Of a stretch of 35,485 nucleotides of DNA, positions 854 through 31,158 are shown piece after piece. Origin of the DNA: a virus; IMG/VR virus record IMGVR_UViG_3300028800_000220, positions 1 to 35,485 of that record. The stretch is one strand, 5' to 3'. The notes below the pieces were generated by a model. The model was not told the origin of the DNA, made no database searches, and saw only the letters and a program-made list of their open reading frames with translations. The stretch's first letter is position 1; every line of letters starts with the position of its first letter. A program made the translations under genes and the position numbers.

Positions 854-1702
854 TTAAAAGTTGCCGACGAAAAATCTAGACGAAAAAATATTTCTAATCT
901 GCCTTTCTAGCTTTGCTCTTTTTTGCATTAATTCTTCTATGCGCAACTGATATATGCGTGGGCCAGGCATAGAGCTGCTTTGCGAAATTCCATCTTGACT
1001 TTGTGATTGACTTGTAAAGATGAATGTGGCCGCAATCTCGCTCAAGATATCTATGGCAGCAATACAGCCGATCAATTCATTGACGACCGTAGGTATCTTG
1101 CCTTCTTGATTAGACATTCCAGCCGTATATTTTATTTGCCAATAAGCCGGGACCCAGTTCAATCCGTCCATGACACTTAAGAATGCAATACCTGCATTTC
1201 CAACTGCACCCTGCACTGAATTCACGCCGTAAGCAGCTAAGAGCGGAATCACATTGATTAACCTCTTAGAAAAGTTTGCAGTTTCGATCCATTCGGCAGG
1301 TATTTCAAAGATGGTATTTTTATCAGCACTCACGATGGCCAACTGTTCAATACTGATAATCGGACCCTGTTCGGCTACCAAATTGATGTAAGCCTTATAG
1401 TCCTCTTGTTTGAAAGGCAATTTGTTTTGGAATTGTTCTGGAGTAATAGTAACTTTTAAATCTACTTCGGCTACGTTGGAGGCGAGATAAATGCGATCCT
1501 TGAGGTCATCGTCAGAGAATGTATCGCCATTGAAAAAGAATAGAGGGATGCCCTTTAGGAATCTCGATTTTAATTGCTGCGGAGTAAGCATCGGTTCGAC
1601 ACGCTGCATCAAACCAGACACAACAGAAGCGTGAACCGGATAGATAGCCGTTCCGTAACCTTTTCCTATAATCGTAGAAACATTATTTGGTGTATTAGCC
1701 AT
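854..1702 (-). CDS. Putative virion structural protein
   Basis: 282 aa from the ATG at 1702, which overlaps the stop of the preceding gene as TAATG; an in-frame ATG at 1711 gives three more residues. GGATG lies about 10 nt before the 1702 start. The sequence mixes short beta-rich and helical segments, with a hydrophobic stretch around residues 160-190 and a basic, probably helical C-terminus (LMQKRAKLERQIRNI). I recognise no family. The late-gene strand, the coupling to another beta-rich gene and the shared upstream promoter-like element suggest a tail, neck or baseplate component. Confidence 0.5.
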   Translation of the reverse strand: MANTPNNVSTIIGKGYGTAIYPVHASVVSGLMQRVEPMLTPQQLKSRFLKGIPLFFFNGDTFSDDDLKDRIYLASNVAEVDLKVTITPEQFQNKLPFKQEDYKAYINLVAEQGPIISIEQLAIVSADKNTIFEIPAEWIETANFSKRLINVIPLLAAYGVNSVQGAVGNAGIAFLSVMDGLNWVPAYWQIKYTAGMSNQEGKIPTVVNELIGCIAAIDILSEIAATFIFTSQSQSQDGISQSSSMPGPRIYQLRIEELMQKRAKLERQIRNIFSSRFFVGNF

Positions 1703-2178
1703 TAGCAACATCCATTGTTTACTGGGAAGATAACGTCCAGCATATTAAGAACACTAAATCTATTGATTGTATTTCCCTGATAAATTGCAAATTGAATGTT
1801 TCCACCGCAAATCGCTTGGCTTGCGGGAACTGAAACAGACCAAATAGAGCTATCGGCGGGGCTGACCTGGGTTGCGATTAGCGTGATGGCAGTGTTAAGA
1901 TCAACTGACGGGAAAGTAACGGTGACTTGATATGGATTATTGTTAGAGCCAATTCCAACCAAATATCTTAGACCAGCAGTAGGTCCTACTGGCGTTATCC
2001 CACTGAAAATACTGCCAAAATATCCACTACTATTTGAGGCTTGAGTAGCCTGATTAGCATCGTAAAGTTGAAAATACAGCGTTATGGGGTCGCCATTGTT
2101 GACGATCCACTGATTACCGTAGGTAAACGCGTTTATATTAAAAAAAGAGGTTATTACTTTTGCGGCGAACAACGGCAT
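1702..2178 (-). CDS. Putative virion structural protein (beta-rich)
   Basis: 158 aa, preceded by a clear GGAG seven bases before the ATG. The composition is rich in N, S, T, G and aromatics, with alternating hydrophobic strands, typical of small phage beta-sandwich proteins. It ends in NNGCC. No named family is recognised. Its stop overlaps the start of the next gene, so the two form a short operon. A GCAATCTTAA element lies 33 nt upstream, inside the end of the inserted GIY-YIG gene, and is the likely promoter. Confidence 0.5.
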   Translation of the reverse strand: MPLFAAKVITSFFNINAFTYGNQWIVNNGDPITLYFQLYDANQATQASNSSGYFGSIFSGITPVGPTAGLRYLVGIGSNNNPYQVTVTFPSVDLNTAITLIATQVSPADSSIWSVSVPASQAICGGNIQFAIYQGNTINRFSVLNMLDVIFPVNNGCC

Positions 2179-2210: not shown

Positions 2211-2220
2211 TTAAGATTGC
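2211..2220 (-). promoter_or_regulatory. AATCTTAA element upstream of structural operon
   Basis: Reads GCAATCTTAA on the minus strand, followed by CTATAGAATATA, 33 nt before the ATG at 2178 and its GGAG site. The same 10-mer occurs before the genes at 6114 and 26151. It overlaps the stop codon of the GIY-YIG gene. The promoter role is inferred. Confidence 0.45.
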
Positions 2221-2966
2221 TTGAGATTTCCAATAGTTGAGTTAACATATTGAAATGTTAGCCCTTTGTGGCTAATTCTTGATTTTTTCAAAATTTCAGA
2301 TATATATTTTCTTCCTATATGTAATTCTTTCGCAGCTTGAGATAAAGAAGCATAAACAATACCATTAGAACATTGAATTTTTATGCCCCTATTTTCTCTT
2401 AAGGAAATGCTTATTTTAAGCTTAGATTCTTCTTTGTGTTTTTTGCCATACATAGGGTGCAATTCACCATTTCTACCAAAACAAGGTGCATTTTCGCCAG
2501 ATTTTCCATACATTGGATTATTTTCACCAATGGTGGCTTCTGATAGAGTCTTTTTTATTTCTATGGCCCGTTGTTCTCCATAAATTTCTGTTAATGTTTT
2601 GCCTTTATTTGCCTGATTTCTTTTTATTAAATCAAATCTTTTTCTACCGTAAGCTCCATTTTTTTGTCCAGTTAAGCCTGAACCAGGCGAACCACCTTCG
2701 GAAATGTTTAATAATTGAACTCCTAAATGTTTGTAATATTTAATTAATTCTATTTCTTTGTTTAAAGCATCCTTTTCATTATCAAAATATTCTATAATAT
2801 CAATTATAGGTTTCAATGTTTTTTTAGATAACAGGCCTATCCATTCCAAATGTGCGGCACTACGTTTTGTTAGTGAATAGGCTCTTCTTCCCTGTCCTTT
2901 CCCAATATATTGGACTTGATTATTTTCCGGATTTCTGTGACAATATACATAGAATTTCTTGTTCAT
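2211..2966 (-). CDS. GIY-YIG homing endonuclease with NUMOD repeats
   Basis: 251 aa. The N-terminus carries the GIY-YIG nuclease signature (YVYCHR at about 7, then QYIGKGQGRRAY with the catalytic Arg region at about 19-30). The middle has NUMOD3-type repeats (NPMYGK, NAPCFG, HPMYGK at about residues 150-180) that contact the DNA minor groove. The C-terminus has a NUMOD1/helix-turn-helix-like segment (SLSQAAKELHIGRKYISEIL). This is the free-standing, Seg-like homing endonuclease architecture. The gene is AT-rich compared with its neighbours and sits between a structural operon and thymidylate kinase. No ribosome binding site precedes the ATG; instead AATCTTAT ends 4 nt before it. Confidence 0.9.
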   Translation of the reverse strand: MNKKFYVYCHRNPENNQVQYIGKGQGRRAYSLTKRSAAHLEWIGLLSKKTLKPIIDIIEYFDNEKDALNKEIELIKYYKHLGVQLLNISEGGSPGSGLTGQKNGAYGRKRFDLIKRNQANKGKTLTEIYGEQRAIEIKKTLSEATIGENNPMYGKSGENAPCFGRNGELHPMYGKKHKEESKLKISISLRENRGIKIQCSNGIVYASLSQAAKELHIGRKYISEILKKSRISHKGLTFQYVNSTIGNLKQS

Positions 2967-3669: not shown

Positions 3670-3985
3670 TGCCTGGATAGCTATGATGTGTGCTGGCATC
3701 ATCAATGCTACTCAAAAAACAGCATGTATTAAAAGTCTAGAAGCGGCAGGTATTCAGTCTGGAATTGTAGAAAAGACTAAGAGGATAGAGCATCAAGCTC
3801 AAATAATGGCTGAGAAACGGGTGATATGGGTTAGTCCGCAGGCCCGATTTGCTATGGCTACTATCTATACAGTTGGAGTGAAAAAACAAGTAGCCATACC
3901 TTTCGATATGGCTTACCCTTTTCAAAGAATAGAATTTCAAGGCTCAACGAACAAAGCTTTGCTTTTGTTCAAATGGACTTTTTAG
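3662..3985 (+). CDS. Hypothetical protein
   Basis: 107 aa. The ATG overlaps the 3' end of thymidylate kinase by 8 nt, so the genes are translationally coupled. The N-terminal 15 residues are moderately hydrophobic, followed by a helical basic region and a C-terminal beta-rich part ending FKWTF. No domain is recognised. Its stop overlaps that of the convergent ice-binding-like gene, leaving no room for an intergenic terminator. Confidence 0.55.
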   Translation: MYSAWIAMMCAGIINATQKTACIKSLEAAGIQSGIVEKTKRIEHQAQIMAEKRVIWVSPQARFAMATIYTVGVKKQVAIPFDMAYPFQRIEFQGSTNKALLLFKWTF

Positions 3986-6114
3986 TTACCAACGATGTTA
4001 TCTTGCAACGTAACCGCAGTCTGCGCGTACAGTCTTCCGTGTACGGTTGCTGTAGTTTGAACTGCAATATTTGTCGCTGACAAAATGATACCATTGAATA
4101 TAGAACTTACACCGAGCGTCACGGCGCCAGTAACTTGCCAGAAGACGTTGCTTGCCAGCAATCCACCAGTAAGTACGATATGCGTAGAGGCCGCTAAGTT
4201 GAGCGTACCGCTAATCTGCATAATGAACACGTCGCTTGGTCCGCCACTCAACGTAAGAGTGGTAGGAATCGTAACGCCGGTAGACCACGTATAAAGGCCG
4301 GGAGTAAGGGTGAGTCCACCCAAGTTTCCACTACCAATATTAACAATCGAATTGAGAGTACGACCTGCAGCATCGTTGTATGCGGTCGTCATGTCGCCAA
4401 TAGCTGTCGTAAGATTGGCTGGAGTTGGTACAGCATAATCAGCCGCATAGATATCGCCAGTCACATTAGGTGCGGTAGAGAATTGTCCACCGCCATCGAG
4501 TGTGAGAACAAATCCGGTGATAGCCGTGTGCGCTATTGGGCTTACTGCCATCGAACCGGTGATTGCAGATCCAGACGTATCGCTGATACCAGCTTCCGAC
4601 AGAATTCTGTAGTTACCAGCAGTTGCGAGATTAACAGCTGTAGGACCGATAACATATGCTGCGCTTGCGATTGCAGAGTTCGTTAAACCAGCCTTTGTAG
4701 CTAATACTTTTAAAGTCTCACCAGTCGCAACACTAATTGCTCCGGTATACAAAGTGCTTCCAGTAGTTGGAGTAGATCCGTCCGTAGTGTAGTAGAAAGT
4801 TGCTCCAGCTGTAACAGAAGAAAGAGTCACAGATTGCGTGGTACCATAAGTTCCAGCAGCCGGGAAGAAAGTCGGAGTAGCGACAGTTCCCGCCCCAGAG
4901 ATAGTATATGCCGCAGAGCCAATAGCAGAATTTGAAAATCCAGCCTTAACTCCCAACACTTTTACGGTTTCGCTAGAAGCAACCGAAATTGGACCAGTAT
5001 ATAGCGTGCTTCCCGTAGTCGGAGTAGAACCGTCCGTAGTATAGTAAAAAGTTGATCCAGCCGTAATCGAAGAGACCGTCACCGACTGCGTACCAGAATA
5101 AGATCCAGCTGCAGGAGAGAAAGTCGGAGTAGCGACAGTTCCTGGTACCGAGATTACATAAGCCGCAGTGCCAACAGTAGAGTTTGAAAACCCAGCCTTC
5201 GTAGCCAACACATTTACAGTCTCATTTGCAGAAACAGAAATGGGCGTACTGTAAAGAGGACTCAGAGTAGTGGGAATCGAACCGTCTGTAGTATAGTAAA
5301 AAGCTGCTCCAGCCGTAGCCGAAGACAAAGAAACCGATTGCGTTCCATAGTATGATCCAGCCGCAGGAGAGAAAGTCGGAGTAGCGACCATGCTAAGAAC
5401 CGCATTGATGACAATGGTAACCGTATTAGAAGTTACGGTAGAAGTCATTCCAGCCAAAGCGCTTGCGATAGCCAGTGCCGTTTTGGTGGCCACGACAGTA
5501 TTGGTGTCGGTGCTATTAATAGTAACTTCAATTCCTGTAAAACCAGGAGGGGTAGGATTCGTATTGCTACCGCCAGCAACGTTGTACCAAACCATATATT
5601 GATTTGTATTTCCAGCATTTGCTAACGTAAAAGAAGATCCAGGGCCAGTAGAAGGAAAGGTACTTCCAGCCGACAGTCCGAGAGTAACCGTAGTCGGAAG
5701 TCCAAGATTCGATACCGTAAAAGTAGTCGCACCAGGCAACGAAACATTCTTCGGAGGATTGGTTCCAAGAGCCGTGATAGGATTTGGAACAACAGAAAAG
5801 AGATTATGAAGAAGGGGGATCGCTGCAGGAGAGATACCGCCAGCCATATTAGAGGCCACGTTTCCAGCAACCACTTGATCTGCGAAACCGTCAATCATGT
5901 ATTGAAGATCGATAAACGAAAGAGGACGCGTTCCCAAGATAGCTGCCTGAAGATCGTTACCAATATTTTTATTACTCATGGCATCTTGCAGCCTGGTAAG
6001 AGTATCCGGAGAAAGTTTAGCGCCGCTTGTGATTGCGCTGGCTAACTCATTACCGGCAGATACCAAGGTGAGGGCATCCTGAAGAGCTATAATAGTATGA
6101 TTAGTTAAAGCCAT
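3982..6114 (-). CDS. Virion-type protein with chitobiase-like repeats and DUF3494 ice-binding-like domain
   Basis: 710 aa. Residues 1-110 are a helical, probably virion-anchoring part, and 120-240 a beta-rich domain. Residues 243-321, 327-405 and 411-489 are three tandem 84-residue repeats with FYYTTDGSxPTT and ETVxVLATKAGFSNS motifs, matching the chitobiase C-terminal (CHB_HEX_C_1) beta-sandwich. Residues 492-708 match DUF3494 (type 1 ice-binding fold): NLATAGNYRILSEAGI, then AVSPIAHTAITGF, and near the end VFWQVTGAVTLG and GRLYAQTAVTLQDN. No signal peptide is visible, so export is unlikely; a fibre, decoration or adhesin protein is the best guess. AAGGAG precedes the ATG and a GCAATCTTAA element lies 49 nt upstream. 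Ice binding itself is not shown by sequence: many DUF3494 proteins act as adhesins. Confidence 0.8.
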   Translation of the reverse strand: MALTNHTIIALQDALTLVSAGNELASAITSGAKLSPDTLTRLQDAMSNKNIGNDLQAAILGTRPLSFIDLQYMIDGFADQVVAGNVASNMAGGISPAAIPLLHNLFSVVPNPITALGTNPPKNVSLPGATTFTVSNLGLPTTVTLGLSAGSTFPSTGPGSSFTLANAGNTNQYMVWYNVAGGSNTNPTPPGFTGIEVTINSTDTNTVVATKTALAIASALAGMTSTVTSNTVTIVINAVLSMVATPTFSPAAGSYYGTQSVSLSSATAGAAFYYTTDGSIPTTLSPLYSTPISVSANETVNVLATKAGFSNSTVGTAAYVISVPGTVATPTFSPAAGSYSGTQSVTVSSITAGSTFYYTTDGSTPTTGSTLYTGPISVASSETVKVLGVKAGFSNSAIGSAAYTISGAGTVATPTFFPAAGTYGTTQSVTLSSVTAGATFYYTTDGSTPTTGSTLYTGAISVATGETLKVLATKAGLTNSAIASAAYVIGPTAVNLATAGNYRILSEAGISDTSGSAITGSMAVSPIAHTAITGFVLTLDGGGQFSTAPNVTGDIYAADYAVPTPANLTTAIGDMTTAYNDAAGRTLNSIVNIGSGNLGGLTLTPGLYTWSTGVTIPTTLTLSGGPSDVFIMQISGTLNLAASTHIVLTGGLLASNVFWQVTGAVTLGVSSIFNGIILSATNIAVQTTATVHGRLYAQTAVTLQDNIVGN
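4648..5388 (-). repeat. Three in-frame tandem repeats (252 bp each)
   Basis: Encodes residues 243-489 of the virion protein. Three 84-codon units each start with VATPTF and end with AAYxI. The second and third units are the most similar. The repeats are coding, part of a beta-sandwich stalk, and could expand or contract by recombination. Confidence 0.85.
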
Positions 6115-6195: not shown

Positions 6196-6828
6196 ATGAA
6201 AATAGTATGTATAAGCGATACGCACTGTCAAATATCTAAGGTAATCCTGCCTGAAGGGGATGTGCTTGTTCATTCTGGGGATCTTACCTATCGTGGAAGT
6301 ACACACGAGATAGCTAACGAACTGAAATCTTTAAAGAAACAAGCCACAAATTTCAAGAATGTCATTATTACAGCGGGTAATCATGACTGGTTAGCTGAGA
6401 AAGATCCTACAATGATGAAAACTCTTTGTGGAGACAACGGTATCACCTATCTACTTGATTCTTCTGTAGAAATTGACGGAAAAGTGTTTTATGGTTCACC
6501 TTGGCAGCCAGAGTTTTTTAACTGGGCCTTTAATGTGCCTAGAGGACCAGAATTAGCCGCTATTTGGAAGAAGATTCCTGATAAGGTCGATGTGTTACTT
6601 ACCCATGGACCACCAGCTGGCATATTAGACCTATGTCCTGATGGTAGTAGGGTTGGCTGTGAAGATTTGTATAAAAGAGTTATCGAGGTAAAGCCGGAAC
6701 TTCATGTTTTTGGTCATATCCATCATTCTTATGGAATGCATCTTTTTAATGGTACAACATTTGTTAATGCGAGCATTTGTACTGAACAGTATAGACCAAC
6801 TAATAAGCCAGTAGTAGTAGAACTATAG
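6196..6828 (+). CDS. MPPED-type metallophosphoesterase
   Basis: 210 aa from the ATG at 6196, where the protein begins MKIVCISDTHC; the upstream in-frame TTG would add a tail not typical of the family. Calcineurin-like metal-binding motifs appear in order: DTH (residues 8-10), GDLTYRG, GNHDW, THGPP and GHIHHSYG. The block GSPWQPEFFNWAFNVPRG and GCEDLY places it close to MPPED1/MPPED2 (UPF0046) phosphodiesterases, which hydrolyse cyclic nucleotides or similar small substrates weakly. No Shine-Dalgarno sequence precedes the start; TATATT lies 6 nt upstream of the ATG. The substrate is unknown; cyclic-nucleotide signal degradation is a speculation. Confidence 0.85.
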   Translation: MKIVCISDTHCQISKVILPEGDVLVHSGDLTYRGSTHEIANELKSLKKQATNFKNVIITAGNHDWLAEKDPTMMKTLCGDNGITYLLDSSVEIDGKVFYGSPWQPEFFNWAFNVPRGPELAAIWKKIPDKVDVLLTHGPPAGILDLCPDGSRVGCEDLYKRVIEVKPELHVFGHIHHSYGMHLFNGTTFVNASICTEQYRPTNKPVVVEL

Positions 6829-7578
6829 CTTGTTAGATTTTCTTAGGTTTTCTGCTGCTGGTAGATATTGTAAGTTCCAAGGTACGTGAAGACCTCTAAC
6901 TTCTTCCCCGTTTAGTGGAACGATATGATCGACGTGAAATCCCTTAGGACAATTGACGTAAATACGTTTAATCTCTTCTTTTTGATGGTCAGATAGCCAT
7001 TTTGGGGTAGCTTGGATTTTTTGAGCACGATAAAAGGCCGTTCTGGAATTTTTTGCAGGTTGATTTCTTTTGTCGTATTCTCTTTTTATTTCTTTACGTT
7101 TTTCTGGATTTTCTTTGTCCCATTTAGCAGCGTTAGCTATGTATTCATCTGTTTTAGCTAAATATCGATTTTTATCCCATAATTTAACAAGATCTGGATT
7201 TTTATTTTTGTATATTTTTACTCTAGCCTTAATTTCTTCTGAATTTTCCTCATAAAAATCTTGATAGCACTTCTTACAAGAAGATACTAAACCTGTAAGT
7301 CTTTTCTCATTTTTATGGAAGTCATCTACCGGTTTATTCTCTTTACACTTAGAGCATCTTTTCATCCCATCCACTATTGGTTCGTGATTTAACCATCGTC
7401 TAGCTAGCGCCGCCTTCTTTTGTTCTGGGGTTAGAATTATTCCCCTTTCCCTAAAGAGTTTTTGTAGGCTAGGCTTTTTCATTCCTGTAGCTTTTACAAT
7501 ATCAGGAATAGCTTCGCCATCCATTCTCATTTCAACTGCTTTAGAAATAATATCATTTGTGTATTTAATCTTACTCAT
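6823..7578 (-). CDS. HNH homing-type endonuclease
   Basis: 251 aa. N-terminal residues 1-50 look like a helix-turn-helix (IPDIVKATGMKKPSLQKLF). A zinc-ribbon-like CSKCK...CKKC follows at about 75-105, then a long basic helical linker. The C-terminus is an HNH nuclease (HVDHIVPLNG, then HVPWNLQYLPAAENLRKSNK), a pattern common in phage free-standing homing enzymes. The stop overlaps the convergent metallophosphoesterase stop. There is no ribosome binding site, and AATCTTAT sits 4 nt before the ATG. Confidence 0.88.
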   Translation of the reverse strand: MSKIKYTNDIISKAVEMRMDGEAIPDIVKATGMKKPSLQKLFRERGIILTPEQKKAALARRWLNHEPIVDGMKRCSKCKENKPVDDFHKNEKRLTGLVSSCKKCYQDFYEENSEEIKARVKIYKNKNPDLVKLWDKNRYLAKTDEYIANAAKWDKENPEKRKEIKREYDKRNQPAKNSRTAFYRAQKIQATPKWLSDHQKEEIKRIYVNCPKGFHVDHIVPLNGEEVRGLHVPWNLQYLPAAENLRKSNKL

Positions 7579-7679: not shown

Positions 7680-9077
7680 TTACGTAGGATTATTCGGAGC
7701 CAACTGACCCGTGATATTCTCAAGGATCACGTTCTTCCTCGGTTGGTATGCAGCCAAGGACAAGAAGCGGAAATGAGCCTCCGGAAGTGACAGATCGCTA
7801 ACCGCAAGTTTCAGCTTGCTGTAAGGAGCCAACTGTCCGAATCCCATCGTATTCGCCTGAACCAAGAAGCCCGTGACCGAGCCAGGTTGACGATTTCCGA
7901 GATCCGTGAACGTCGCACCCGATCCAGCGCCATTCGCCGCGACCTTACCGATGAACTTGGCAACCGCTGCCGTTCCACCGAGATCCGAGCGATACACGCA
8001 GTAGTACTGTCCCGTACCGGTGATGGTCAGAGTGACCTTATCGCCAGCCGTAACAGCCTGAGTCTGCGCCGCAGACGGGAGAGACTCACCACGCATCGTC
8101 ACCGCAGTGACATAATATGCATAGCTACCGGTTTGGAGCAACGAACCCGCCGGGCCACCATCAGCGATGGTGAACGTCGGAGCCGCCGGGCTACCACTTC
8201 GCGGACGCGCCGGGCGCGTTTTGCCAGACAGGAAGCGCGAAGCTTCGAGCGAGACAACCGCACTAGAGGTCCACTGAGTACGCAAATGAGCACCAGTCGC
8301 TTCCTGAGCAGAGCCAGCAAGCATGATACGTTCTTTCGCGTGCGCGATCTTGTTATACGCGCTCAAGCTGATCGGATCAAGAACCAGTCTGTCCGCAGCG
8401 CCCATGTTCATGGCCGAACGAACCGAACTATCTTCGATCACTGACTGAGTAAGAGTTCCGCCGACCGACAGTACAACCGTCTGATCCGAACCATATTCAG
8501 CAAACATAAGATCCTGAGTATTTTGCTGACTGTCCGACTGACGAACCTGTTGATCAAGTCCAATCATATTCGGAACCTTAGCAACCGCAAGGGGGTTACC
8601 ATCAAACACGCCCGCGTTCGAGAAATCGCTCTGTCCACGGAAAGAGTCGAACTCGATATCGCCAGCGAGCTTCATCGCAGCGTCCGCAGCCGCACGATCT
8701 TCTGCCTTCACGCCATCGAACGCGCCGATGTAGTTAGCAGCAACCGTGACTCTACGAGTCGTGCTGTAGTATGCCATCGGCACCACTGCACGGACATAGT
8801 TAGACGTGTCTTCTTCGCCGATTCCGCCTTCAAACTGGGCCGAACCACCAAAGATACCATAATCCAACTGACGATTAAACTGATGCAATTGAGACTTCAC
8901 ATCCTTCGAAGGAAGCATCTTTTGCAGTTTAATATGACTGTCATCAAACGTTACATTGTGCATAACGGGCGAGAGATCCTCGACCATCAAAGCGGCTCCC
9001 TGAGCCAATTGTCCTGGAGCAGCATTGTAACTTCCTGCTTCAAGCGCCTTCATAAGTGACTGAAGTTGTTCAATCAT
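7680..9077 (-). CDS. Major capsid protein with inserted Ig/FnIII-like domain
   Basis: 465 aa from the ATG at 9077, chosen because AAGGAGA sits 7 nt upstream; an in-frame GTG further upstream would place that site inside the gene. Residues 20-290 and the C-terminal 60 residues look like a large-phage HK97-fold capsid subunit (helical, basic segments such as KAEDRAAADAAMKLA, then YSKLKLAVSDLSLPEAHFRFLSL). Residues about 300-400 form a beta-rich insert (SPAAPTFTIADGG, YAYYVTAVT, GESLPS, YYCVYRS) resembling Ig/fibronectin-III domains that decorate capsid surfaces. The gene sits last in an operon after the scaffold-like gene and before a strong terminator, with high-quality codons and raised GC, as expected for the most abundant virion protein. 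The HK97 fold is inferred from context. Confidence 0.75.
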   Translation of the reverse strand: MIEQLQSLMKALEAGSYNAAPGQLAQGAALMVEDLSPVMHNVTFDDSHIKLQKMLPSKDVKSQLHQFNRQLDYGIFGGSAQFEGGIGEEDTSNYVRAVVPMAYYSTTRRVTVAANYIGAFDGVKAEDRAAADAAMKLAGDIEFDSFRGQSDFSNAGVFDGNPLAVAKVPNMIGLDQQVRQSDSQQNTQDLMFAEYGSDQTVVLSVGGTLTQSVIEDSSVRSAMNMGAADRLVLDPISLSAYNKIAHAKERIMLAGSAQEATGAHLRTQWTSSAVVSLEASRFLSGKTRPARPRSGSPAAPTFTIADGGPAGSLLQTGSYAYYVTAVTMRGESLPSAAQTQAVTAGDKVTLTITGTGQYYCVYRSDLGGTAAVAKFIGKVAANGAGSGATFTDLGNRQPGSVTGFLVQANTMGFGQLAPYSKLKLAVSDLSLPEAHFRFLSLAAYQPRKNVILENITGQLAPNNPT

Positions 9078-9103
9078 TGTATTCTCCTTATTAAAATCCA
9101 CTG

Positions 9104-11080: not shown

Positions 11081-13327
11081 ATGAATAAGTGTTCTTATAT
11101 TGATGGAATAGCCTCTTCTCAGGCGATAGATTCAAGCGGCGAAATAGTGGATCTAAAAGGACTAGACACCTCCTCTCTTATTGGTGCGGTTCTGAATTGG
11201 GAACACAAAAGCGACAGTCCTTCCCAGATTTGTGGTAAGATATTGAAAGCCCACAAGATTTTCTCTAAGGAAGACTGTCAAGATGATAGGCAGTCATATT
11301 TTTGGAATAAGTACAAGATTCCATTCCTTTATATAATGGGTCGTCTTTTTGATGATCCAAAGAACCCAAAACCATCTGCTTTGGAAGTTGCCTCTTTGTT
11401 TAAAGACGACGCTGAACATCCCAACGAACCACCTGTCGTGGGTTTTTCAGTAGAAGGGGCAAAAATCCCCGGAGCAAAAGAGGGAATGACTATTACTCGT
11501 TCTATTGCTCGTAAAGTGACGATCACAAATTTACCTTGCAATAAGACTTGCGTTGCTGAACTAATGCCGTCACCTAAGGAATCGACAAATAAAGACAATC
11601 TACTTGGCTCTCTTTTCAAAGGCGAAATGGAATTGTTTAAGTTTGAGTCTACTTATGAAGAAATTCTTCAGAAAAAAGAAAGCGAAAGAATACCTACTTC
11701 TCAAAATGAAACCAATGAAGTTGTAAAAGGTACCGCAATGGATGTTGGTGCAGGCTACGAACCCAGCACGGGTGGCGGTCAGGGTGGAGGCGCCTCTGGC
11801 GGTGGAGCATTCATTGGAAGCCAACTAGCCATGTCAGAAGAAATGGATAAGGGCGAAGATGACGAATATAAACGATGGAGAGGGGCTGCAACTAGAGTAG
11901 GAGCCAGAAAGGCTGCAGTGTCTAGAAAAATCAACGATCATATAAAAGCAGGCGGAAAAAGCGATGCTCCAGAGATGGCAGATCATTGGGCACGATATAA
12001 AGATCTGCATGAACAATCAAAACAAATCAATGCAATGAATCCAAGAAAAAAATTAGCAAAAGGTGAGAATGGAGATTGGAAAAAAGAAGGATATACCTTA
12101 CGTTATGCCAAGGGAAATTTTAATACTGGCGGCCAACACTTAGTTCAAGCATTTGATAATAAAGGTAATCATATTGGAGAGACCGAACTTAGTGAGCATC
12201 ATTCCAAGGCATCCGGTGGACGCTTGCACCCCGTACAAACCTTTGTCGATCATAGGCATCGCAGGAAGGGAATTGCTTCTGCTATGTATAATCACGCAGA
12301 GGAGAAGACTGGTTTGAAAATACATCCGAGTCATAAACAAACAATTGAAGGTAAAAAATTCTCTGACAATAGAAAATCTGAAGATCTTAAAAAAGCTCTT
12401 ACCGCTGGATCTGCAATGGCTACACCTTCTCAATTGGTAGGCGGCGCCGCATTGGGGAAAGAAAGTCTTGAAAAACGTCCTAAGATGAATGCTATGATTA
12501 AAAAAGAAGAATTAAAGAAAGATACGGCGCCTACGGCTCCAACGCCTTCGCCTTCACCTGCACCGGTAACCGCAGAAGGAGTGCAGGCAGGATTCAACAA
12601 TGCACTTGGATTTGGTGGATCTTTGAAAAAGAAAGAAAAATCGCATTGGTATGAGCGTGCAGATCAAGCTTATAGTACTTGGGATAAAAAGAATCAGTTT
12701 AAGGACTATATGAAGAAAAGAATGCCTCATTTGGCCGAAGGAGAAATCGACTCTATCGGTAGAGTGTTGGCATTAAAAAAGACTGTTCAGGCTGAAGGCA
12801 AACTGTCTAAGATGTATGCAAGTTATTTTGGAAAAGCAGAAACCGGACATGAAATAGGCGTACATTCACAAGCCGATCAAGCAATTGCTTATGGAAAAAA
12901 GGGCATAAAAAGAGTAGGTGGAGTTTCTGCTGCAGGTGCAGATTATAGAGGCGCCGACGTTCATATGGCTAGAGTTAAACACAAAGAAGCTCTTCATGAA
13001 TTGAAACAAATGCCCTCTCCAAATCTTCCTAAATCTGAAAATATGAAGAAGAGCTATGAACCAGATCCTTCTCATGCTAAACAAAGCGGATATCATCCCA
13101 CTGAACCTGGCACCGAGTATATTCATGGTCTTCCTAAGGGACACCCCTCATTAGGAGAACATAAAGGCCATACTTATCGTAAGCTTTCGCCTCCTACTAA
13201 AGACCACAATTTCCATACCTGGGCTGTTAAAACGCCTAAAGGTCAGAATTATAAGGTTAATTTGCCCGCCCATACTGGTGGAAGCAGAGAGTCGATCCAC
13301 GAACACATCAACGCTCGTACAAAATAG
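11081..13327 (+). CDS. Prohead protease (XkdF-like) fused to a GNAT domain
   Basis: 748 aa. Residues 1-165 resemble phage prohead/XkdF-like serine proteases: an N-terminal YIDGIASSQAIDSSGEIVD strand pair, a candidate catalytic His in NWEHKS (H42) and Ser in VVGFSVEG (S123). A Gly-rich linker (about 230-243) follows. Residues about 335-420 look like a GNAT acetyltransferase, with the acetyl-CoA loop HRRKGIASAMYNHAEEKTG. The remaining 320 residues are basic and of unknown fold, with a Pro-rich linker at about 490-505. The ATG has no ribosome binding site but an AATCTTAT element 4 nt upstream. It is encoded opposite to the capsid operon it would serve. The protease assignment rests on weak similarity plus neighbourhood; the GNAT call rests mainly on motif A. 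Confidence 0.6.
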   Translation: MNKCSYIDGIASSQAIDSSGEIVDLKGLDTSSLIGAVLNWEHKSDSPSQICGKILKAHKIFSKEDCQDDRQSYFWNKYKIPFLYIMGRLFDDPKNPKPSALEVASLFKDDAEHPNEPPVVGFSVEGAKIPGAKEGMTITRSIARKVTITNLPCNKTCVAELMPSPKESTNKDNLLGSLFKGEMELFKFESTYEEILQKKESERIPTSQNETNEVVKGTAMDVGAGYEPSTGGGQGGGASGGGAFIGSQLAMSEEMDKGEDDEYKRWRGAATRVGARKAAVSRKINDHIKAGGKSDAPEMADHWARYKDLHEQSKQINAMNPRKKLAKGENGDWKKEGYTLRYAKGNFNTGGQHLVQAFDNKGNHIGETELSEHHSKASGGRLHPVQTFVDHRHRRKGIASAMYNHAEEKTGLKIHPSHKQTIEGKKFSDNRKSEDLKKALTAGSAMATPSQLVGGAALGKESLEKRPKMNAMIKKEELKKDTAPTAPTPSPSPAPVTAEGVQAGFNNALGFGGSLKKKEKSHWYERADQAYSTWDKKNQFKDYMKKRMPHLAEGEIDSIGRVLALKKTVQAEGKLSKMYASYFGKAETGHEIGVHSQADQAIAYGKKGIKRVGGVSAAGADYRGADVHMARVKHKEALHELKQMPSPNLPKSENMKKSYEPDPSHAKQSGYHPTEPGTEYIHGLPKGHPSLGEHKGHTYRKLSPPTKDHNFHTWAVKTPKGQNYKVNLPAHTGGSRESIHEHINARTK

Positions 13328-13498: not shown

Positions 13499-14272
13499 AT
13501 GATTTATCTTAATGATGAAAAAATTGTTCCTACCATTTTTCCCGACAAGACCTCTCAAATTTGGAAAGTAAAAAATATCCCAACCGGCTATGTTGTTGCT
13601 AAAGTAGTGTGGATCTTCGAAAACGAGGGCGAATTTCTTCATTTGGCTCAGTTAAAGACTCTTCTAGATTATTATAACGTATTGTATTCCAAATTAACAA
13701 TGCATTATTTGCCATACGGTAGGCAAGATAAGGAAGTATCAAATGATACCACTTTTGCCTTAACTACCTTTGCAAAATTACTTAATTCTTTAAATTTTCA
13801 AAAAGTTACAATCGTCGATCCGCATAGTCCAGTTGCGTCTACATTAATACACAATTGCGAAGAATGGTATCCTCAAGACTATATCAATTCTGTTATGTTT
13901 ACTTGTAAAACAGATGTAGTTTGTTATCCAGACGACGGAGCCTACTGTAAATACGTCCCAATGTATCAATTTTCTCAACCACATATTCATGGAGAAAAAG
14001 TCCGCGATCAACTTACCGGCAATATCACTAGTTATAAATTGATCAATGATTTAGGTAATCTTGGCAATATTGTTGGAAAAAGTATTATGATTATCGATGA
14101 TATATGCGATGGTGGAATGACTTTCAAATTGTTAGCCAAAGATCTCTTGGCTGCAGGTGCTAAAGAGGTAAATCTCTTTGTCACTCATGGGATATTTTCA
14201 AAAGGTTTGAAAACTCTCAAAGATTCAGGGATCAACCGTATATTCACTCAGGATGGAGAAAAGAGTGAGTAA
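13499..14272 (+). CDS. PRPP synthetase-like enzyme (Prs or Adps-type)
   Basis: 257 aa against about 315 for cellular Prs. Motifs are YLPYGRQDK (residues 70-78, ATP site), IVDPHS (105-110) and the phosphoribosyl-binding loop IIDDICDGGMTF (198-209). Cellular enzymes make PRPP from ribose 5-phosphate and ATP. In the phage NARP1 pathway a Prs-like enzyme (Adps) instead pyrophosphorylates ADP-ribose. The loop reads DGGMT rather than the usual DTGGT, and the protein is shortened, both compatible with a specialised phage enzyme but not proof of ADP-ribose use. The gene is followed after 27 nt by the NAMPT-like gene. ATG preceded by AAGGAG. Confidence 0.85.
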   Translation: MIYLNDEKIVPTIFPDKTSQIWKVKNIPTGYVVAKVVWIFENEGEFLHLAQLKTLLDYYNVLYSKLTMHYLPYGRQDKEVSNDTTFALTTFAKLLNSLNFQKVTIVDPHSPVASTLIHNCEEWYPQDYINSVMFTCKTDVVCYPDDGAYCKYVPMYQFSQPHIHGEKVRDQLTGNITSYKLINDLGNLGNIVGKSIMIIDDICDGGMTFKLLAKDLLAAGAKEVNLFVTHGIFSKGLKTLKDSGINRIFTQDGEKSE

Positions 14273-14299
14273 ACTATTTCATATATAGGAGATTATAAT

Positions 14300-15778
14300 A
14301 TGAAAACTTTCAAAATGTCAGCAATGCTACTGTGTGATTTTTATAAACTTTCGCACAGATTGATGTATCCAAATAAGACCGAAGTCGTTTATTCTACGTG
14401 GACGCCCCGCGCTTCTAGAATGAAGGATGTTAATGAGGTAGTTGTTTTTGGAAATCAAAGAGTGGTCAAGTTTCTAAATGACTTCTTTCAAGAAAATTTC
14501 TTTTCTAGACCAAAAGCAGAAGTGGCTGCTGAATATGCTAGAATCGTCAAGTGTACCCTTGGTGTTGCTGATCCAGATGTTAGTCACATTGAAGCGCTAC
14601 ACGATCTTGGCTATCTACCGTTGCTCATTAAAGGAGTTGCAGAAGGTACTGTTGTTCCCTTGAGAGTTCCTACTTTAACCATTCAAAATACTGATCCCAG
14701 ATTTTTCTGGCTCACAAACTATGTTGAAACCCTTCTGTCTTGTGAACTATGGCCCGCTTATACAGCGGCTACTATTGCACATGAGTATCGCAAACTTCTT
14801 GATGATGCCGCAATGAGGACAGTTGGCAATACTGATTTTGTTCAATTTCAAGGGCACGATTTCTCCATGAGGGGAATGGGCGGCCTAGAAATGGCTACTA
14901 ATACGGGTCTTGGTCATTTGTTATCTTTTGCTGGCACGGATACTATCCCTGCTATTTTGGCAGCCGAGTATTACTATGGTGCTAATGTGGAAAAAGAACT
15001 TGTTGGCACTTCAATCCCAGCAACTGAACATAGTATTCAATGCGTTTACGGTGACGATATGGCATATTTAGACAATATGCTTTCAAAGGTTCACCATAGT
15101 GGATTTGTTTCCATCGTCTCTGATGGTTATGATTTCTGGGATGTGATTGGTCGAGTTATTCCAGCCCTTAAGGAAAAAATCATGGCCCGCAATGGTGGCC
15201 CTCTTGGTGATAGGGTTGTTATTCGTCCAGATTCTGGCGATCCGGTCCTAGTTGTTTGCGGAGATCCAGAAGGAAAAACTGAACTCGAACGTAAGGGTGC
15301 AGTAGAAGCTCTCTGGGATATCTTTGGCGGTACCGTTACCGAGAAAGGTTATAAACTTCTCGATTCCCATATTGGCCTTATCTACGGTGATGCCATTACG
15401 CTACGACGTGCAGAGGAAATCATCAACCGTCTTGCCGAAAAAGGATTTGCTTCCATTAATGTGGTATTGGGAATTGGATCTTTTTCGTACCAGTATAATA
15501 CCAGAGATACGTTTGGTTTTGCTTTAAAATCAACATCTTGTGTCGTTGATGGGGTAGAAAAACAGATCTTCAAAAATCCCAAAACTGATGACGGCATCAA
15601 GAAGTCACAAAAGGGAAAAGTTCTTGTTTACAGGACTAGTGGAAAGATCACCTATAGCGATGGCCATAGTCTGGATTCTGAACTTTCTGTAGATATGTTG
15701 CGACCTATCTTTAAGGATGGTATGCTACTTAATGAAGAAACATTTGAACAGATCAGAGCTAGACTTAAGAATGGATAA
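14300..15778 (+). CDS. Nicotinamide phosphoribosyltransferase-like enzyme (NadV/Namat-type)
   Basis: 492 aa, full length for NAMPT. The catalytic and ligand regions are recognisable: QFQGHDFSMRGMGG (183-196), PATEHS with His244 (equivalent to the human active-site His), IVSDGYDFW, VIRPDSGDP (R309, D311), YGDAITL, and the GIGS-type phosphate loop in VVLGIGSF. It condenses nicotinamide with PRPP to NMN, or, as Namat in NARP1, with ADP-ribose pyrophosphate directly to NAD+. It forms an operon with the upstream Prs-like gene; TAGGAG lies before the ATG. No NMN adenylyltransferase is seen in this window, which favours the two-enzyme NARP1 arrangement, although one could lie elsewhere. Confidence 0.9.
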   Translation: MKTFKMSAMLLCDFYKLSHRLMYPNKTEVVYSTWTPRASRMKDVNEVVVFGNQRVVKFLNDFFQENFFSRPKAEVAAEYARIVKCTLGVADPDVSHIEALHDLGYLPLLIKGVAEGTVVPLRVPTLTIQNTDPRFFWLTNYVETLLSCELWPAYTAATIAHEYRKLLDDAAMRTVGNTDFVQFQGHDFSMRGMGGLEMATNTGLGHLLSFAGTDTIPAILAAEYYYGANVEKELVGTSIPATEHSIQCVYGDDMAYLDNMLSKVHHSGFVSIVSDGYDFWDVIGRVIPALKEKIMARNGGPLGDRVVIRPDSGDPVLVVCGDPEGKTELERKGAVEALWDIFGGTVTEKGYKLLDSHIGLIYGDAITLRRAEEIINRLAEKGFASINVVLGIGSFSYQYNTRDTFGFALKSTSCVVDGVEKQIFKNPKTDDGIKKSQKGKVLVYRTSGKITYSDGHSLDSELSVDMLRPIFKDGMLLNEETFEQIRARLKNG

Positions 15779-17195: not shown

Positions 17196-18032
17196 ATGGA
17201 TGTAAAGGTAATCAGTTTAAGGTCAAAAGATTTCGATTATGATTTCATGGAATCCATAATTTCTACGGGGTTTGCGGTGGTGAAGAATTTCGGCGTAGAC
17301 CTAGGTCTTATTCGTGATACCCAAGCCGGATGGAAAGAGTTTTTCAATAAAAATAGAAGCTATAAGGATCAATTTGTCAATTCCAAAGATTCAAATTTGG
17401 GATTTACGGGATTTGGTGGCGAAAAGGCTGTAGGAGCACAAGTTGCTGATATTAAAGAATTTTTTCACTATAAACCAGGAGTACGGCTTCCAGATGAAGT
17501 GTCAGTTCTTACTCAAAAACTTTATTCTCTTCTAGAAGGAGATGTTTCTGGTCGTTTGCTTCACGCCCTAAATAGGAACGAATCAATCCCAGTAGATTTT
17601 GTTGAGGTGTGTAGAAATAGCAATAATACCCTCATGAGGGCAATTTATTACCCATCCCTGGACAGTATCAAACAAGAACCGGGTGCCGTAAGGGCAGCAG
17701 CTCATGAGGACATCAACATTCTTACACTATTGGTTGCCGCTAGTGCTCCAGGATTAGAAGTTCAAGATAATGTTGGACGGTGGCATTCCGTACCTTTTGA
17801 AGAAAACTCTTTGATCGTAAACGCAGGAGATATGCTTCAGCTTGCTAGCGGTGGGCGGTTTAAGTCTACTACACATAGGGTTGTCAACCCTGATAATTCC
17901 AATTCGGATAGGTTGTCAATCCCATTGTTTGTTCATGCCAATGGTGATACTATTCTAGTACCAGGCGTTACGGCACAACAATACCTTGATGAAAGACTTA
18001 ATGCTATTTATAAGGGCGGATATGGAAAATAG
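17196..18032 (+). CDS. 2-oxoglutarate/Fe(II)-dependent oxygenase
   Basis: 278 aa, isopenicillin-N-synthase-like. The iron triad is His170-x-Asp172 (AAHEDINILTLL) and His227 (STTHRV), with Arg239-x-Ser241 (DRLSIPLF) binding 2-oxoglutarate. The N-terminal part (IISTGFAVVKNFGV) matches the DIOX_N-type segment. Such phage enzymes are thought to modify nucleic acid or metabolites, but the substrate cannot be read from the sequence. TTGGAG precedes the ATG. The 3' end overlaps the start of the endonuclease gene by 11 nt. Confidence 0.85.
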   Translation: MDVKVISLRSKDFDYDFMESIISTGFAVVKNFGVDLGLIRDTQAGWKEFFNKNRSYKDQFVNSKDSNLGFTGFGGEKAVGAQVADIKEFFHYKPGVRLPDEVSVLTQKLYSLLEGDVSGRLLHALNRNESIPVDFVEVCRNSNNTLMRAIYYPSLDSIKQEPGAVRAAAHEDINILTLLVAASAPGLEVQDNVGRWHSVPFEENSLIVNAGDMLQLASGGRFKSTTHRVVNPDNSNSDRLSIPLFVHANGDTILVPGVTAQQYLDERLNAIYKGGYGK

Positions 18033-18630
18033 AAAAGTTTGCAATGTATGTAAACAACATAAATTACATATAGAATTTTGTAAAAATAAAGCAAGCAAAG
18101 ATGGATTAAATTATAAATGTAATAATTGCAATAAATTAGCAAGAATTAAATATTTGGTAAACAATAAAGACAAGGAACTCAAGAGACATAAATTATACAA
18201 ATTAAATAACAAAGAAAAAATTAAAAAAAATGATAAATTATATAGATTAAACAATAAACACAAAGAATATGGGAGACAAAAAATATGGAGAAAAAATAAT
18301 CCACAAAAAGTTAAAGATAAGGGCAAAAGAGCAAGAATGAAAACAGATAAATCAAAATTTAAAAATCTTTCTTTGTTATATAAATTTGGTATATCTTTAC
18401 ATGAATTTGAACTAATGGTAAAAAAACAAAGTAATTTATGTGCTATATGCAATTCGCAAGAAACTCTTTTTGATAAAAGAGCTAATAAAATAAGATCTCT
18501 TGTGGTAGATCACGATCACAGAAGTGGTAAAATTAGGGGACTTTTATGCGGTGCGTGTAATAAAGGATTAGGTTTATTTAAAGATAATTCAGAAATAATT
18601 AAAAAAGCTAGTGAGTATTTAAAATTATGA
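18022..18630 (+). CDS. Recombination endonuclease VII-type HNH nuclease
   Basis: 202 aa from the ATG at 18022, which overlaps the end of the oxygenase gene; AAGGGCGG precedes it. An N-terminal zinc ribbon (CNVCK...CNNCNK) is followed by a Lys/Asn-rich helical linker of about 70 residues and a C-terminal Endonuclease_7 domain: FGISLHEFELMVKKQSNLCAIC, the His-Me core VVDHDHRSGKIRGLLCGACN and GLGLFKDN. Relatives include both resolvase-type and mobile endonucleases. The coding sequence is far more A-rich than its neighbours and squeezed between two genes with overlaps at both ends, suggesting recent arrival as a homing element. Confidence 0.88.
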   Translation: MENRKVCNVCKQHKLHIEFCKNKASKDGLNYKCNNCNKLARIKYLVNNKDKELKRHKLYKLNNKEKIKKNDKLYRLNNKHKEYGRQKIWRKNNPQKVKDKGKRARMKTDKSKFKNLSLLYKFGISLHEFELMVKKQSNLCAICNSQETLFDKRANKIRSLVVDHDHRSGKIRGLLCGACNKGLGLFKDNSEIIKKASEYLKL

Positions 18631-29385: not shown

Positions 29386-31158
29386 TTACGTCCGTTCGTT
29401 GGCTTCGTTCTTATACTGTTCCGGGTTGTCTACAGCTCTTCCATATTCAGCGTCGGCACGCGCTTCTGATCTTTCAAAGGCATCATCTCTAGGATAGGCT
29501 ACAATTCCGCCCATAGTACCAAGCACACTGGCTATACTAACTGCATTACTCAATGATTCTGATACTGCCTTTGCTGCATCTAGAAGGCCCAACTCTTCAG
29601 CCTTTCCAAATACTTGGTTTTCAACATCATATACGGATTCGCTATCTTCTATAAGTCTGGCCATAATATCATTGATTTCTTCTTTATGGTAACCAGCATT
29701 GTCAAGTAACTTATGGGGAAGCGCAAGTAAAGCTTTTATCAAAACTTCACTAGCCGGATCGCCTTCAGGAAATTCTGAAGAAAGTTTCATAACCATATCA
29801 ATAGCAAGCCTGCAACCACCAGGAACGGCACCATGAATAATAGCTGAGCGGACAGCACAAACAGCATCTTCACAGCGGTCGTGAGCCTCTTTTAGCTCTC
29901 CGTTAGAACCACCAAAAATAGTAAGTTTGGCGATGCCATTGGTAATTTTTCCCAAGCGCTCTTCTAGCATGATTTTTTCTGCCGCACTTTCGGCATTTTT
30001 CATCATTGTTTTAAGTTCTTCTGCCCTGACCTCCACATTCATGGGATCTGGATCGCCAATAACAGTGCTTCGAAAGCGATAAGCCTCAAAACTTTCCATT
30101 CCTCTACCCAAATCTTCCAAAGTTGCATTTCCAATCTGTTCTCTCAATCCAAAAACTTTGGCGCCAGTAAAGGCTGCAAGATCGTGCAGAAAATGTGTTT
30201 GGCTATTCAAAAATTGTGCCATCGGTGTAATTAACGGCAAGACATTCAAGGTATTTGGATTGGAAAAGTTAAACGCAAGCTGTGTCAAAACATTTTCGCT
30301 AAATCCATGACAGACGATGACCAGATTCTTGTAATCTGAGTTCCCTTCCTCTACATATTTCTTACCAAGACCGTCTAGCAAAGGCATAAACATAAGGAGA
30401 TCATTAATGTGACCATCATAAAGAAGAAATAGGGGCTTCTCCAGGAAAGCGCGTTGGTTTGCTTGATCGTTAATAAAAGCTGTGTGTAGTTTTCCAATAG
30501 ATTCCTCAAACCCTATGGGAATTGGAAATCCATCAATCCTCTCTACGACATAATTTGGTTTTCCACTAAGTTGTCGAATTGTAATGTGGGAACTTTCTCC
30601 GAAACCAATCTCTTCAAAGGCTTTGATTACTGCATCTGCCATTTCAGAATCGCCATTAGCGCTGATTTGCGCTACCATCTTGAGTAGTTGTTTATTTTCT
30701 TCCGTAATTTTGATGGTTTTAGATTCAATAAATGGCAACAAAATATCGTTAACCACTTTTCTAATCCTGCGGGTAGCTTTCTGCGGACTATATTTAGGAT
30801 TTTTTTCGCAAAAATCGAAAAGATTTTCAATAATACTATACGACAAAATAGTAGCCGTAGTAGTACCATCTCCAACTTCTGAAGCCGTTCTGGTGGCCAC
30901 ATCTCTAGCTGTTTCAATGATTAGGTGTGCATAAGCATTTTGATCTCCTAGAGATTTGAATATAGTTACACCATCTTTAGTAATCGTATTGCTAATTCCA
31001 GGATAATCGCTTTCAATCGTTGTCAACTTTCCGCAAGGTCCTAAACTACTTCCAACAGCGTCGCTAACCCTTTTCATTGTTTTAAGAACTATTGATTGAA
31101 GTTTTTTCTGGTCAGTCTCAAACATTTTGGGACTTGTTTTAGCCTTACGATATGACAT
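29386..31158 (-). CDS. Phage GroEL-type chaperonin
   Basis: 590 aa against about 545 for GroEL. ATPase motifs are SSLGPCGKLTTI (GPxG at 40-43), TKDGVTIF and GDGTTTATIL (97-106). The second equatorial half has HDRCEDAVCAVRSAIIHGAVPGGC, matching the GroEL region with the catalytic Asp. The C-terminus lacks the GGM repeats. The apical domain is divergent. No GroES-like partner is visible in the window. Phage chaperonins of this kind are thought to fold virion proteins, sometimes without co-chaperonin. AGAGGT precedes the ATG. It lies next to terminase, within the head module. Confidence 0.9.
   Translation of the reverse strand: MSYRKAKTSPKMFETDQKKLQSIVLKTMKRVSDAVGSSLGPCGKLTTIESDYPGISNTITKDGVTIFKSLGDQNAYAHLIIETARDVATRTASEVGDGTTTATILSYSIIENLFDFCEKNPKYSPQKATRRIRKVVNDILLPFIESKTIKITEENKQLLKMVAQISANGDSEMADAVIKAFEEIGFGESSHITIRQLSGKPNYVVERIDGFPIPIGFEESIGKLHTAFINDQANQRAFLEKPLFLLYDGHINDLLMFMPLLDGLGKKYVEEGNSDYKNLVIVCHGFSENVLTQLAFNFSNPNTLNVLPLITPMAQFLNSQTHFLHDLAAFTGAKVFGLREQIGNATLEDLGRGMESFEAYRFRSTVIGDPDPMNVEVRAEELKTMMKNAESAAEKIMLEERLGKITNGIAKLTIFGGSNGELKEAHDRCEDAVCAVRSAIIHGAVPGGCRLAIDMVMKLSSEFPEGDPASEVLIKALLALPHKLLDNAGYHKEEINDIMARLIEDSESVYDVENQVFGKAEELGLLDAAKAVSESLSNAVSIASVLGTMGGIVAYPRDDAFERSEARADAEYGRAVDNPEQYKNEANERT

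Follow-up and report, generated by a model that had tools for sequence, protein, structure and literature searches.

A DUF3494 ice-binding-like domain at the tip of a putative head fibre in a tailed phage distantly related to Mx1

The window analysed here, a 35,485-base stretch of IMG/VR record IMGVR_UViG_3300028800_000220, is a tailed-phage fragment with capsid (phrog_752), portal, intein-containing terminase, endolysin-like and tail genes, and without sheath or baseplate genes. It encodes a 710-aa protein that ends in a DUF3494 domain of the ice-binding type. We infer that this protein is probably part of the virion, and we give about an even chance to its being a head-attached fibre that displays an ice-binding domain. 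Given such display, the sequence evidence somewhat favours ice as the putative ligand of the tip, a function that we consider plausible. The features on which the argument draws are as follows.

854..1711, minus strand: head-tail gene matching PHROG 772 'tail fiber' (E = 1.4e-18), at the same place in locus L004 (10283-11146)
1702..2178, minus strand: next head or neck gene downstream, by gene order and size, at the same place in L004 (9873-10298)
3982..6114, minus strand: whole fibre gene, 710 aa, with ATG at 6114, stop at 3982 and an open frame
3991..4605, minus strand: DUF3494 / Ice_binding domain (PF11999), Pfam match at residues 504-708
4645..4881, minus strand: CHB_HEX_C_1 repeat 3, residues 412-490 (Pfam)
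4897..5133, minus strand: CHB_HEX_C_1 repeat 2, residues 328-406 (Pfam)
5149..5385, minus strand: CHB_HEX_C_1 repeat 1, residues 244-322 (Pfam)
5395..5763, minus strand: WYNV beta domain, residues 118-240
5866..6114, minus strand: N-terminal docking module, residues 1-34 (recurring on other capsid-adjacent proteins) and weaker motif repeats to about residue 83
6823..7578, minus strand: endonuclease VII-like gene between the capsid and fibre genes; cargo, outside the fibre
7680..9101, minus strand: major capsid protein, phrog_752 (E = 1.9e-43), 1566 bases from the fibre gene

The fibre protein is built, in order, of a helical N-terminus, a beta domain that we call WYNV after its conserved VWYNV motif, three CHB_HEX repeats and the C-terminal DUF3494 domain. 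An earlier note on this DNA had given the right coordinates, 3982-6114; the coding strand is the minus strand, and the plus strand of the same stretch is interrupted by stops in the one frame that was translated. The three-repeat chitobiase-like stalk described there is borne out by Pfam, with CHB_HEX_C_1 (PF13290) matching three stretches of the protein (E = 9.5e-53). The N-terminus also lacks an export signal, as had been claimed, according to a crude hydropathy rule of our own; a signal was found in 53 of 65 cellular DUF3494 ORFs. The WYNV domain is present too in large tail and baseplate proteins of relatives. The model of the N-terminal part (mean pLDDT 73.9, pTM 0.54) gave matches in a viral library with E values down to 4e-6, all of them low-TM fragments of large tail-type proteins. 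No match for the N-terminal docking part was obtained in the PDB at E ≤ 0.001, and none for the fibre protein (P0001) among the PHROGs.

The identity of the tip agrees with what had been read from the sequence. Ice_binding (PF11999) matched over profile positions 1-207 of 208 with E = 6.3e-65 and 219 bits, against a cut-off of 28.7. Sequence searches recovered 25 distinct PDB sequences at E ≤ 1e-3, the best being 9li0 (1.6e-66) and 4nu3 (1e-65); the closest solved proteins are the ice-binding proteins of Candidatus Cryosericum odellii and Flavobacterium frigoris. Structure prediction and comparison, which the earlier note had proposed as a check, led to the same family: an AlphaFold2 model of the domain aligned to 25 solved DUF3494 ice-binding entries with Z 17.7-19.9, and the next fold, pilin ComZ, followed at 9.1. 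The model shows a long helix at 79-98 and solenoid strands; its confidence is middling (mean pLDDT 71.8, with weak ends). Nevertheless, the family assignment is firm, because sequence homology alone suffices for it. Of the tests run, the tip missed one, the NCBIfam equivalog threshold of the Bacteroidetes-type protein (IBP_CFB ice-binding protein, NF045625), with 214 bits where 400 are required; all the others place it in DUF3494.

The ice face was mapped by sequence register to TisAFP7, whose ice-binding positions and six inward residues are given in the available part of PMC7966756; the phmmer ranges 490-706 and 2-218 yield an offset of 488. The mapped face comprises residues 509, 511, 613, 615, 637, 639, 664, 666, 682, 684, 700 and 702 of the fibre. 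The flat Thr/Ser/Ala-rich face that had been named as the feature to look for is present: the outward positions form the rows GGTANA and STNTAT, small in 12 of 12 cases, and the inward positions are I, V, L, V, I and V, as expected. As for the reference faces, small residues fill all 12 positions in FfIBP (mutant 4nu3), and 9 of the 12 in the C. odellii form. Sliding the register from −3 to +3 gave 9, 10, 6, 12, 0, 9 (of 11) and 4 (of 11) small residues, where slides of two overlap the same rows.

Face statistics were computed on sets reduced to below 80% identity. Small residues occupied 739 of 798 face cells in phage domains versus 352 of 468 in cellular ones, and at least 11 of 12 face residues were small in 51/67 phage and 8/39 cellular sequences. 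In the phage set, which is dominated by one lineage, the face was more conserved than the rest of the solenoid (entropy 1.19 versus 1.75 bits, column permutation 0.007); in the sampled cellular relatives, fetched with patterns of the window lineage, it was less conserved (1.79 versus 1.33 bits elsewhere, permutation 0.978). These statistics overstate independence, because the phage sequences are related, and the first ice-face position of circularly permuted domains is unreliable, as such domains misalign at the first strand.

The N-terminal part ties the fibre to other proteins encoded near capsid genes. A scan of IMG/VR with a capsid alignment returned 62 loci, which together with the window provided 46 distinct full-length capsid proteins after capsids shorter than 450 aa, identical duplicates and L067-L070, whose capsid matches are too weak, had been left out. 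Residues 1-34 of the fibre recur at the start of small capsid-near proteins, mostly of 90-252 aa, in related phages. The C-terminal parts of these proteins are unlike one another (predicted-coil-like, beta or, by eye, WYNV-like), and residues 1-34 therefore look like a docking module. A docking-module gene was found at E ≤ 1e-3 in 29 of the 46 capsid loci, 18 of them profile seeds and 11 not, and 13 of the 29 genes, the window's included, bear DUF3494. The other 17 loci yielded no docking gene at this cut-off, in some cases because the record stops short. Against reversed proteins the docking profile gave 4 of 6848 at E ≤ 1 (best 0.08), and against cellular loci one match was listed (E = 0.82). 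Relatives of the N-terminal part were missed by a single-sequence scan, but some were recovered by the alignment-based one. One docking protein (L018) matched the head fiber family phrog_6994 weakly (E = 0.0037). A separate IMG/VR scan with the domain returned L004-L007 (three distinct sequences), which share the whole architecture at 58-63% identity over the entire protein; their fibre genes lie near a capsid gene 82-85% identical to that of the window.

The nearest isolate is the Myxococcus phage Mx1 (OR576727), whose capsid protein is 52% identical over 99%, and this distant kinship is the sole host clue for the window phage. Both phages have the same order of terminase, portal, capsid and neck genes, and the 854..1711 gene has a counterpart in Mx1 by size and order; unlike the window phage, Mx1 has neither DUF3494 nor a relative of the N-terminal part. 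Its capsid-neck interval carries a thymidylate synthase and a kinase, and that of the window carries the endonuclease. Position alone proves little, because the interval holds cargo genes too. In the more distant L075, L077 and L078 (capsid 56-58%), the docking-DUF3494 gene is located elsewhere, among non-structural genes, and in two of the three the capsid gene lies tens of kilobases away on the same record. Capsid adjacency as proof of a head protein was dropped in view of the Mx1 cargo and of these three loci. In gene context the fibre has the attributes of a head fibre, namely capsid adjacency and an anchor common to capsid-adjacent proteins, in an interval that also contains cargo. Display on the particle, which the earlier note had called likely, is well supported, if indirectly, since the N-terminal module is common to capsid-near proteins and relatives fuse DUF3494 to baseplate and sheath; the most likely site is the head.

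Two further scans yielded 17 and 69 loci. Pfam confirmed PF11999 in 10/10 proteins in each of two sets; in a third it was found in 1/10, the one protein expected to carry it. In the 2585-aa L167 protein, Baseplate_J (E = 3.8e-18) and PF11999 (2.2e-36) are present in one chain, and the 2746-aa L080 protein, a baseplate wedge by PHROG (1.7e-21), contains two PF11999 stretches. Seven proteins (L203 and six of nine others given) combine tail sheath phrog_279 with DUF3494 in a single chain. Within the same capsid family, the sheaths of G001, G003 and G009 have no insert and measure 716-719 aa in our reading; those of G007, G013 and G014 measure 916-977 aa and carry an extra domain in the same loop, with one more insert in G013.

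The DUF3494 domains in question are circularly permuted. A divergent DUF3494 profile matched with positions of about 50-196 ahead of 1-50 in 12/12 proteins given, namely ten sheaths (10/10) and docking proteins L010 and L014, in which the permuted domain splits a WYNV domain; the order was normal in 7/7 controls, the window included. With the canonical DUF3494 profile, the second piece of the permutants was weaker, and in one (L230) absent. In TisAFP7 the first and last ice-face strands adjoin in the trough (residues 22 and 213), according to the available part of PMC7966756, and a permutant can therefore keep the ice face. Permuted sheath-loop domains were seen in L237 (the 68 kb region of G014), L238, L239 and L203; such an insert marks a place where a large foreign domain is displayed naturally.

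The domain was detected in 8 of 19 records searched and in neither Mx1 nor ten others. One PF11999 match each was found in G002, G006, G009, G017 and G018, four in G007, and five each in G013 and G014. Seven of the 13 full-size family records (150-177 kb) and Mx1 have no PF11999; eight further records, chosen for PF11999, all carry it. DUF3494 is thus an optional character of this phage group. A tblastn search with four domains (P0002, L189, L203 and L008) against 50,697 phage records returned nothing at E ≤ 0.01; P0002 alone, extended to E 10, gave two Synechococcus phage tail-fibre matches (E = 9). Phage S-SKS1, a homologue according to the available part of PMC11515562, gave no PF11999 match by profile. 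DUF3494 was also observed in other phage types. In L008 (1039-3267), an unrelated phage contig, it occurs in a 742-aa protein beside long collagen-like (GPTGPT) fibre genes, and L189, L182 and L177, which are records of about 117 kb from a different type of phage, have two to four PF11999 matches each, with E values to 1e-59.

In a quick tree of 114 rows, nine phage domains, the window tip among them, form a set without cellular members (SH-aLRT 99), nested in a set of 47 (100) that holds 36 cellular proteins and both references. A second set comprises 55 phage domains (88, not starred), which serve in sheath, baseplate and docking proteins. An odd long-branch cluster in this tree consists of permuted second pieces; the first alignment of the permuted sheath domains mixes pieces. 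Both sets feed the docking module, so two DUF3494 lineages, as judged from their sequences, reached the same module; the second lineage may have cellular members too, beyond the sampled sequences. The dN of the tip was below that of the anchor in 9/9 pairs, and the six pairs that allowed dS to be estimated gave a tip dN/dS of 0.08-0.17. L011 and L013 have tips identical in DNA and anchors that differ (dS 0.41), which points to tip exchange. A tip more constant than its anchor would suit an unchanging ligand.

The display could be right and the ligand something other than ice, with the Thr-rich face binding some constant surface that hosts or soil particles present, such as a regular polysaccharide, and the fibre acting as an accessory adhesin. 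We consider this rather doubtful but worth keeping in view. The conserved positions are the very ones mapped as the ice face, and this tip is more constant than its anchor, in contrast to receptor-binding tips that are caught up in an arms race. On the other hand, the CHB_HEX repeats stem, by family name, from carbohydrate-active enzymes, and relatives add DUF3494 domains at tail and baseplate, the sites of host contact. The fold has non-ice roles, such as that of pilin ComZ (Z 9.1 against our model), in the available part of PMC6561018, and that of PMC12337378 places DUF3494 in substrate-binding proteins and ice-free habitats.

A further reading makes DUF3494 a passive, promiscuous surface domain of the virion with no ligand of its own, like the Ig-like domains of many phages. 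Its occurrence in head, sheath and baseplate proteins, its movement between them, its absence from many relatives and its insertion as a permutant in a loop would all fit. We nevertheless judge this unlikely: one face is conserved and the tip is under strong purifying selection, both of which suggest that it binds a partner, and a spacer would have no need of a flat face. Least credible, and in our view very improbable, is an auxiliary gene whose ice-binding product protects the infected host from freezing and is released at lysis. Three PF11999 genes are read in this way in the available part of PMC11515562, and the fibre gene does lie in a cargo-bearing interval; however, the fibre protein has no export signal by the crude rule, its docking module is common to other capsid-adjacent proteins, it has the architecture of a stalk, and relatives carry sheath and baseplate fusions.

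In domain, fold and flat-face position and make-up, the tip is like FfIBP, TisAFP, LeIBP and the ice-binding protein of Candidatus Cryosericum odellii; those proteins are secreted or cell-attached, whereas the fibre, having no export signal, stands on a phage docking and stalk module. The bacterial ice adhesin SfIBP likewise carries an ice-binding domain on extender domains and serves attachment rather than freezing-point depression, but adhesins of its type have a cell-wall or secretion-signal anchor where the fibre has a phage virion module. MpAFP is another bacterial ice adhesin with an ice-binding tip on extender domains, used for attachment. Phage phi29 gp8.5 and T4 Hoc are head fibres or decoration proteins with a docking part and displayed Ig-like beta domains, and they are optional between relatives. 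In contrast to these, the fibre displays DUF3494, and its docking module shows no kinship to any family matched here.

Viral DUF3494 genes are already in print as host-cryoprotection genes. The available part of PMC11515562 describes three PF11999 genes in Arctic vOTUs, interpreted in this way, and that of PMC8407431 one antifreeze protein, its family given only as 'antifreeze protein', in Southern Ocean viruses. Within those parts, both concern host cold protection, and no fusion to sheath or baseplate is described. The accessible text of PMC11515562, PMC10405475, PMC10970483, PMC12923769 and PMC10385804 assigns no virion role to DUF3494. Searches of the open-access literature turned up no account of a sheath, baseplate, head-fibre or other virion protein that bears DUF3494.

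Several other genes of the window deserve mention. A PRPP-synthetase-like gene (TIGR01251, E = 2.7e-19) adjoins a nicotinamide phosphoribosyltransferase-like gene (PRK09198, E = 4e-155; PDB 9w5x, E = 1.7e-193) at 13499-15778 (plus strand). Together they are reminiscent of NARP1, a phage pathway of NAD+ reconstitution that acts against NAD-depleting defences. At about residues 345-722 of the terminase large subunit (26223-29222, minus) the chain is interrupted by an intein that contains a LAGLIDADG domain. Three more genes are endonuclease-like, one of homing type (NUMOD3 / weak GIY-YIG) and two resembling endonuclease VII; they lie at 2211-2966 (minus), 6823-7578 (minus) and 17986-18630 (plus). 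A GroEL-like chaperonin of 590 aa is encoded at 29386-31158 (minus; phrog_5725, E = 2.6e-85). The 748-aa ORF at 11081-13327 (plus) matches a head maturation protease over its first 44 residues (phrog_1028, E = 1e-6), and its middle is GNAT acetyltransferase-like, below the Pfam cut-off. In the capsid protein (7680-9101, minus), residues of about 300-400 resemble, by eye, an inserted Fn3/Ig-like domain.

For the head fibre with an ice-binding tip, we infer the head location, copy number, ligand and benefit as follows. The N-terminal module would dock the fibre to the virion, most likely to the head, with the WYNV domain and the three CHB_HEX repeats as its stalk. At the tip, the DUF3494 beta-solenoid would expose its flat Thr-/Ala-rich face, order water and bind ice in the manner of secreted microbial ice-binding proteins. 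Many copies per particle could make attachment to ice effectively irreversible or stop ice recrystallisation around the virion, and related phages would load more DUF3494 domains on sheath and baseplate. Tentatively, and with less confidence than in the fibre itself, we picture ice-adhering virions in this group: with DUF3494 on the head fibre, on every sheath subunit (permuted, within one loop) and on some members' baseplates, a particle might present 100 or more ice faces and stay attached where its hosts gather, at ice surfaces or in brine veins. Some IMG sample numbers of these contigs may be those of Stordalen Mire peat; six such numbers, looked for in open-access papers, occurred in none.

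If this is true, phages have taken up the main microbial ice-binding fold as a part of the virion, on two or more occasions in the head module and separately again in sheath and baseplate. A non-motile particle could then choose where to stay in frozen soil, snow or sea ice, or survive freeze-thaw, and PF11999 genes in viral contigs would have to be read as virion parts rather than as host-protection genes.
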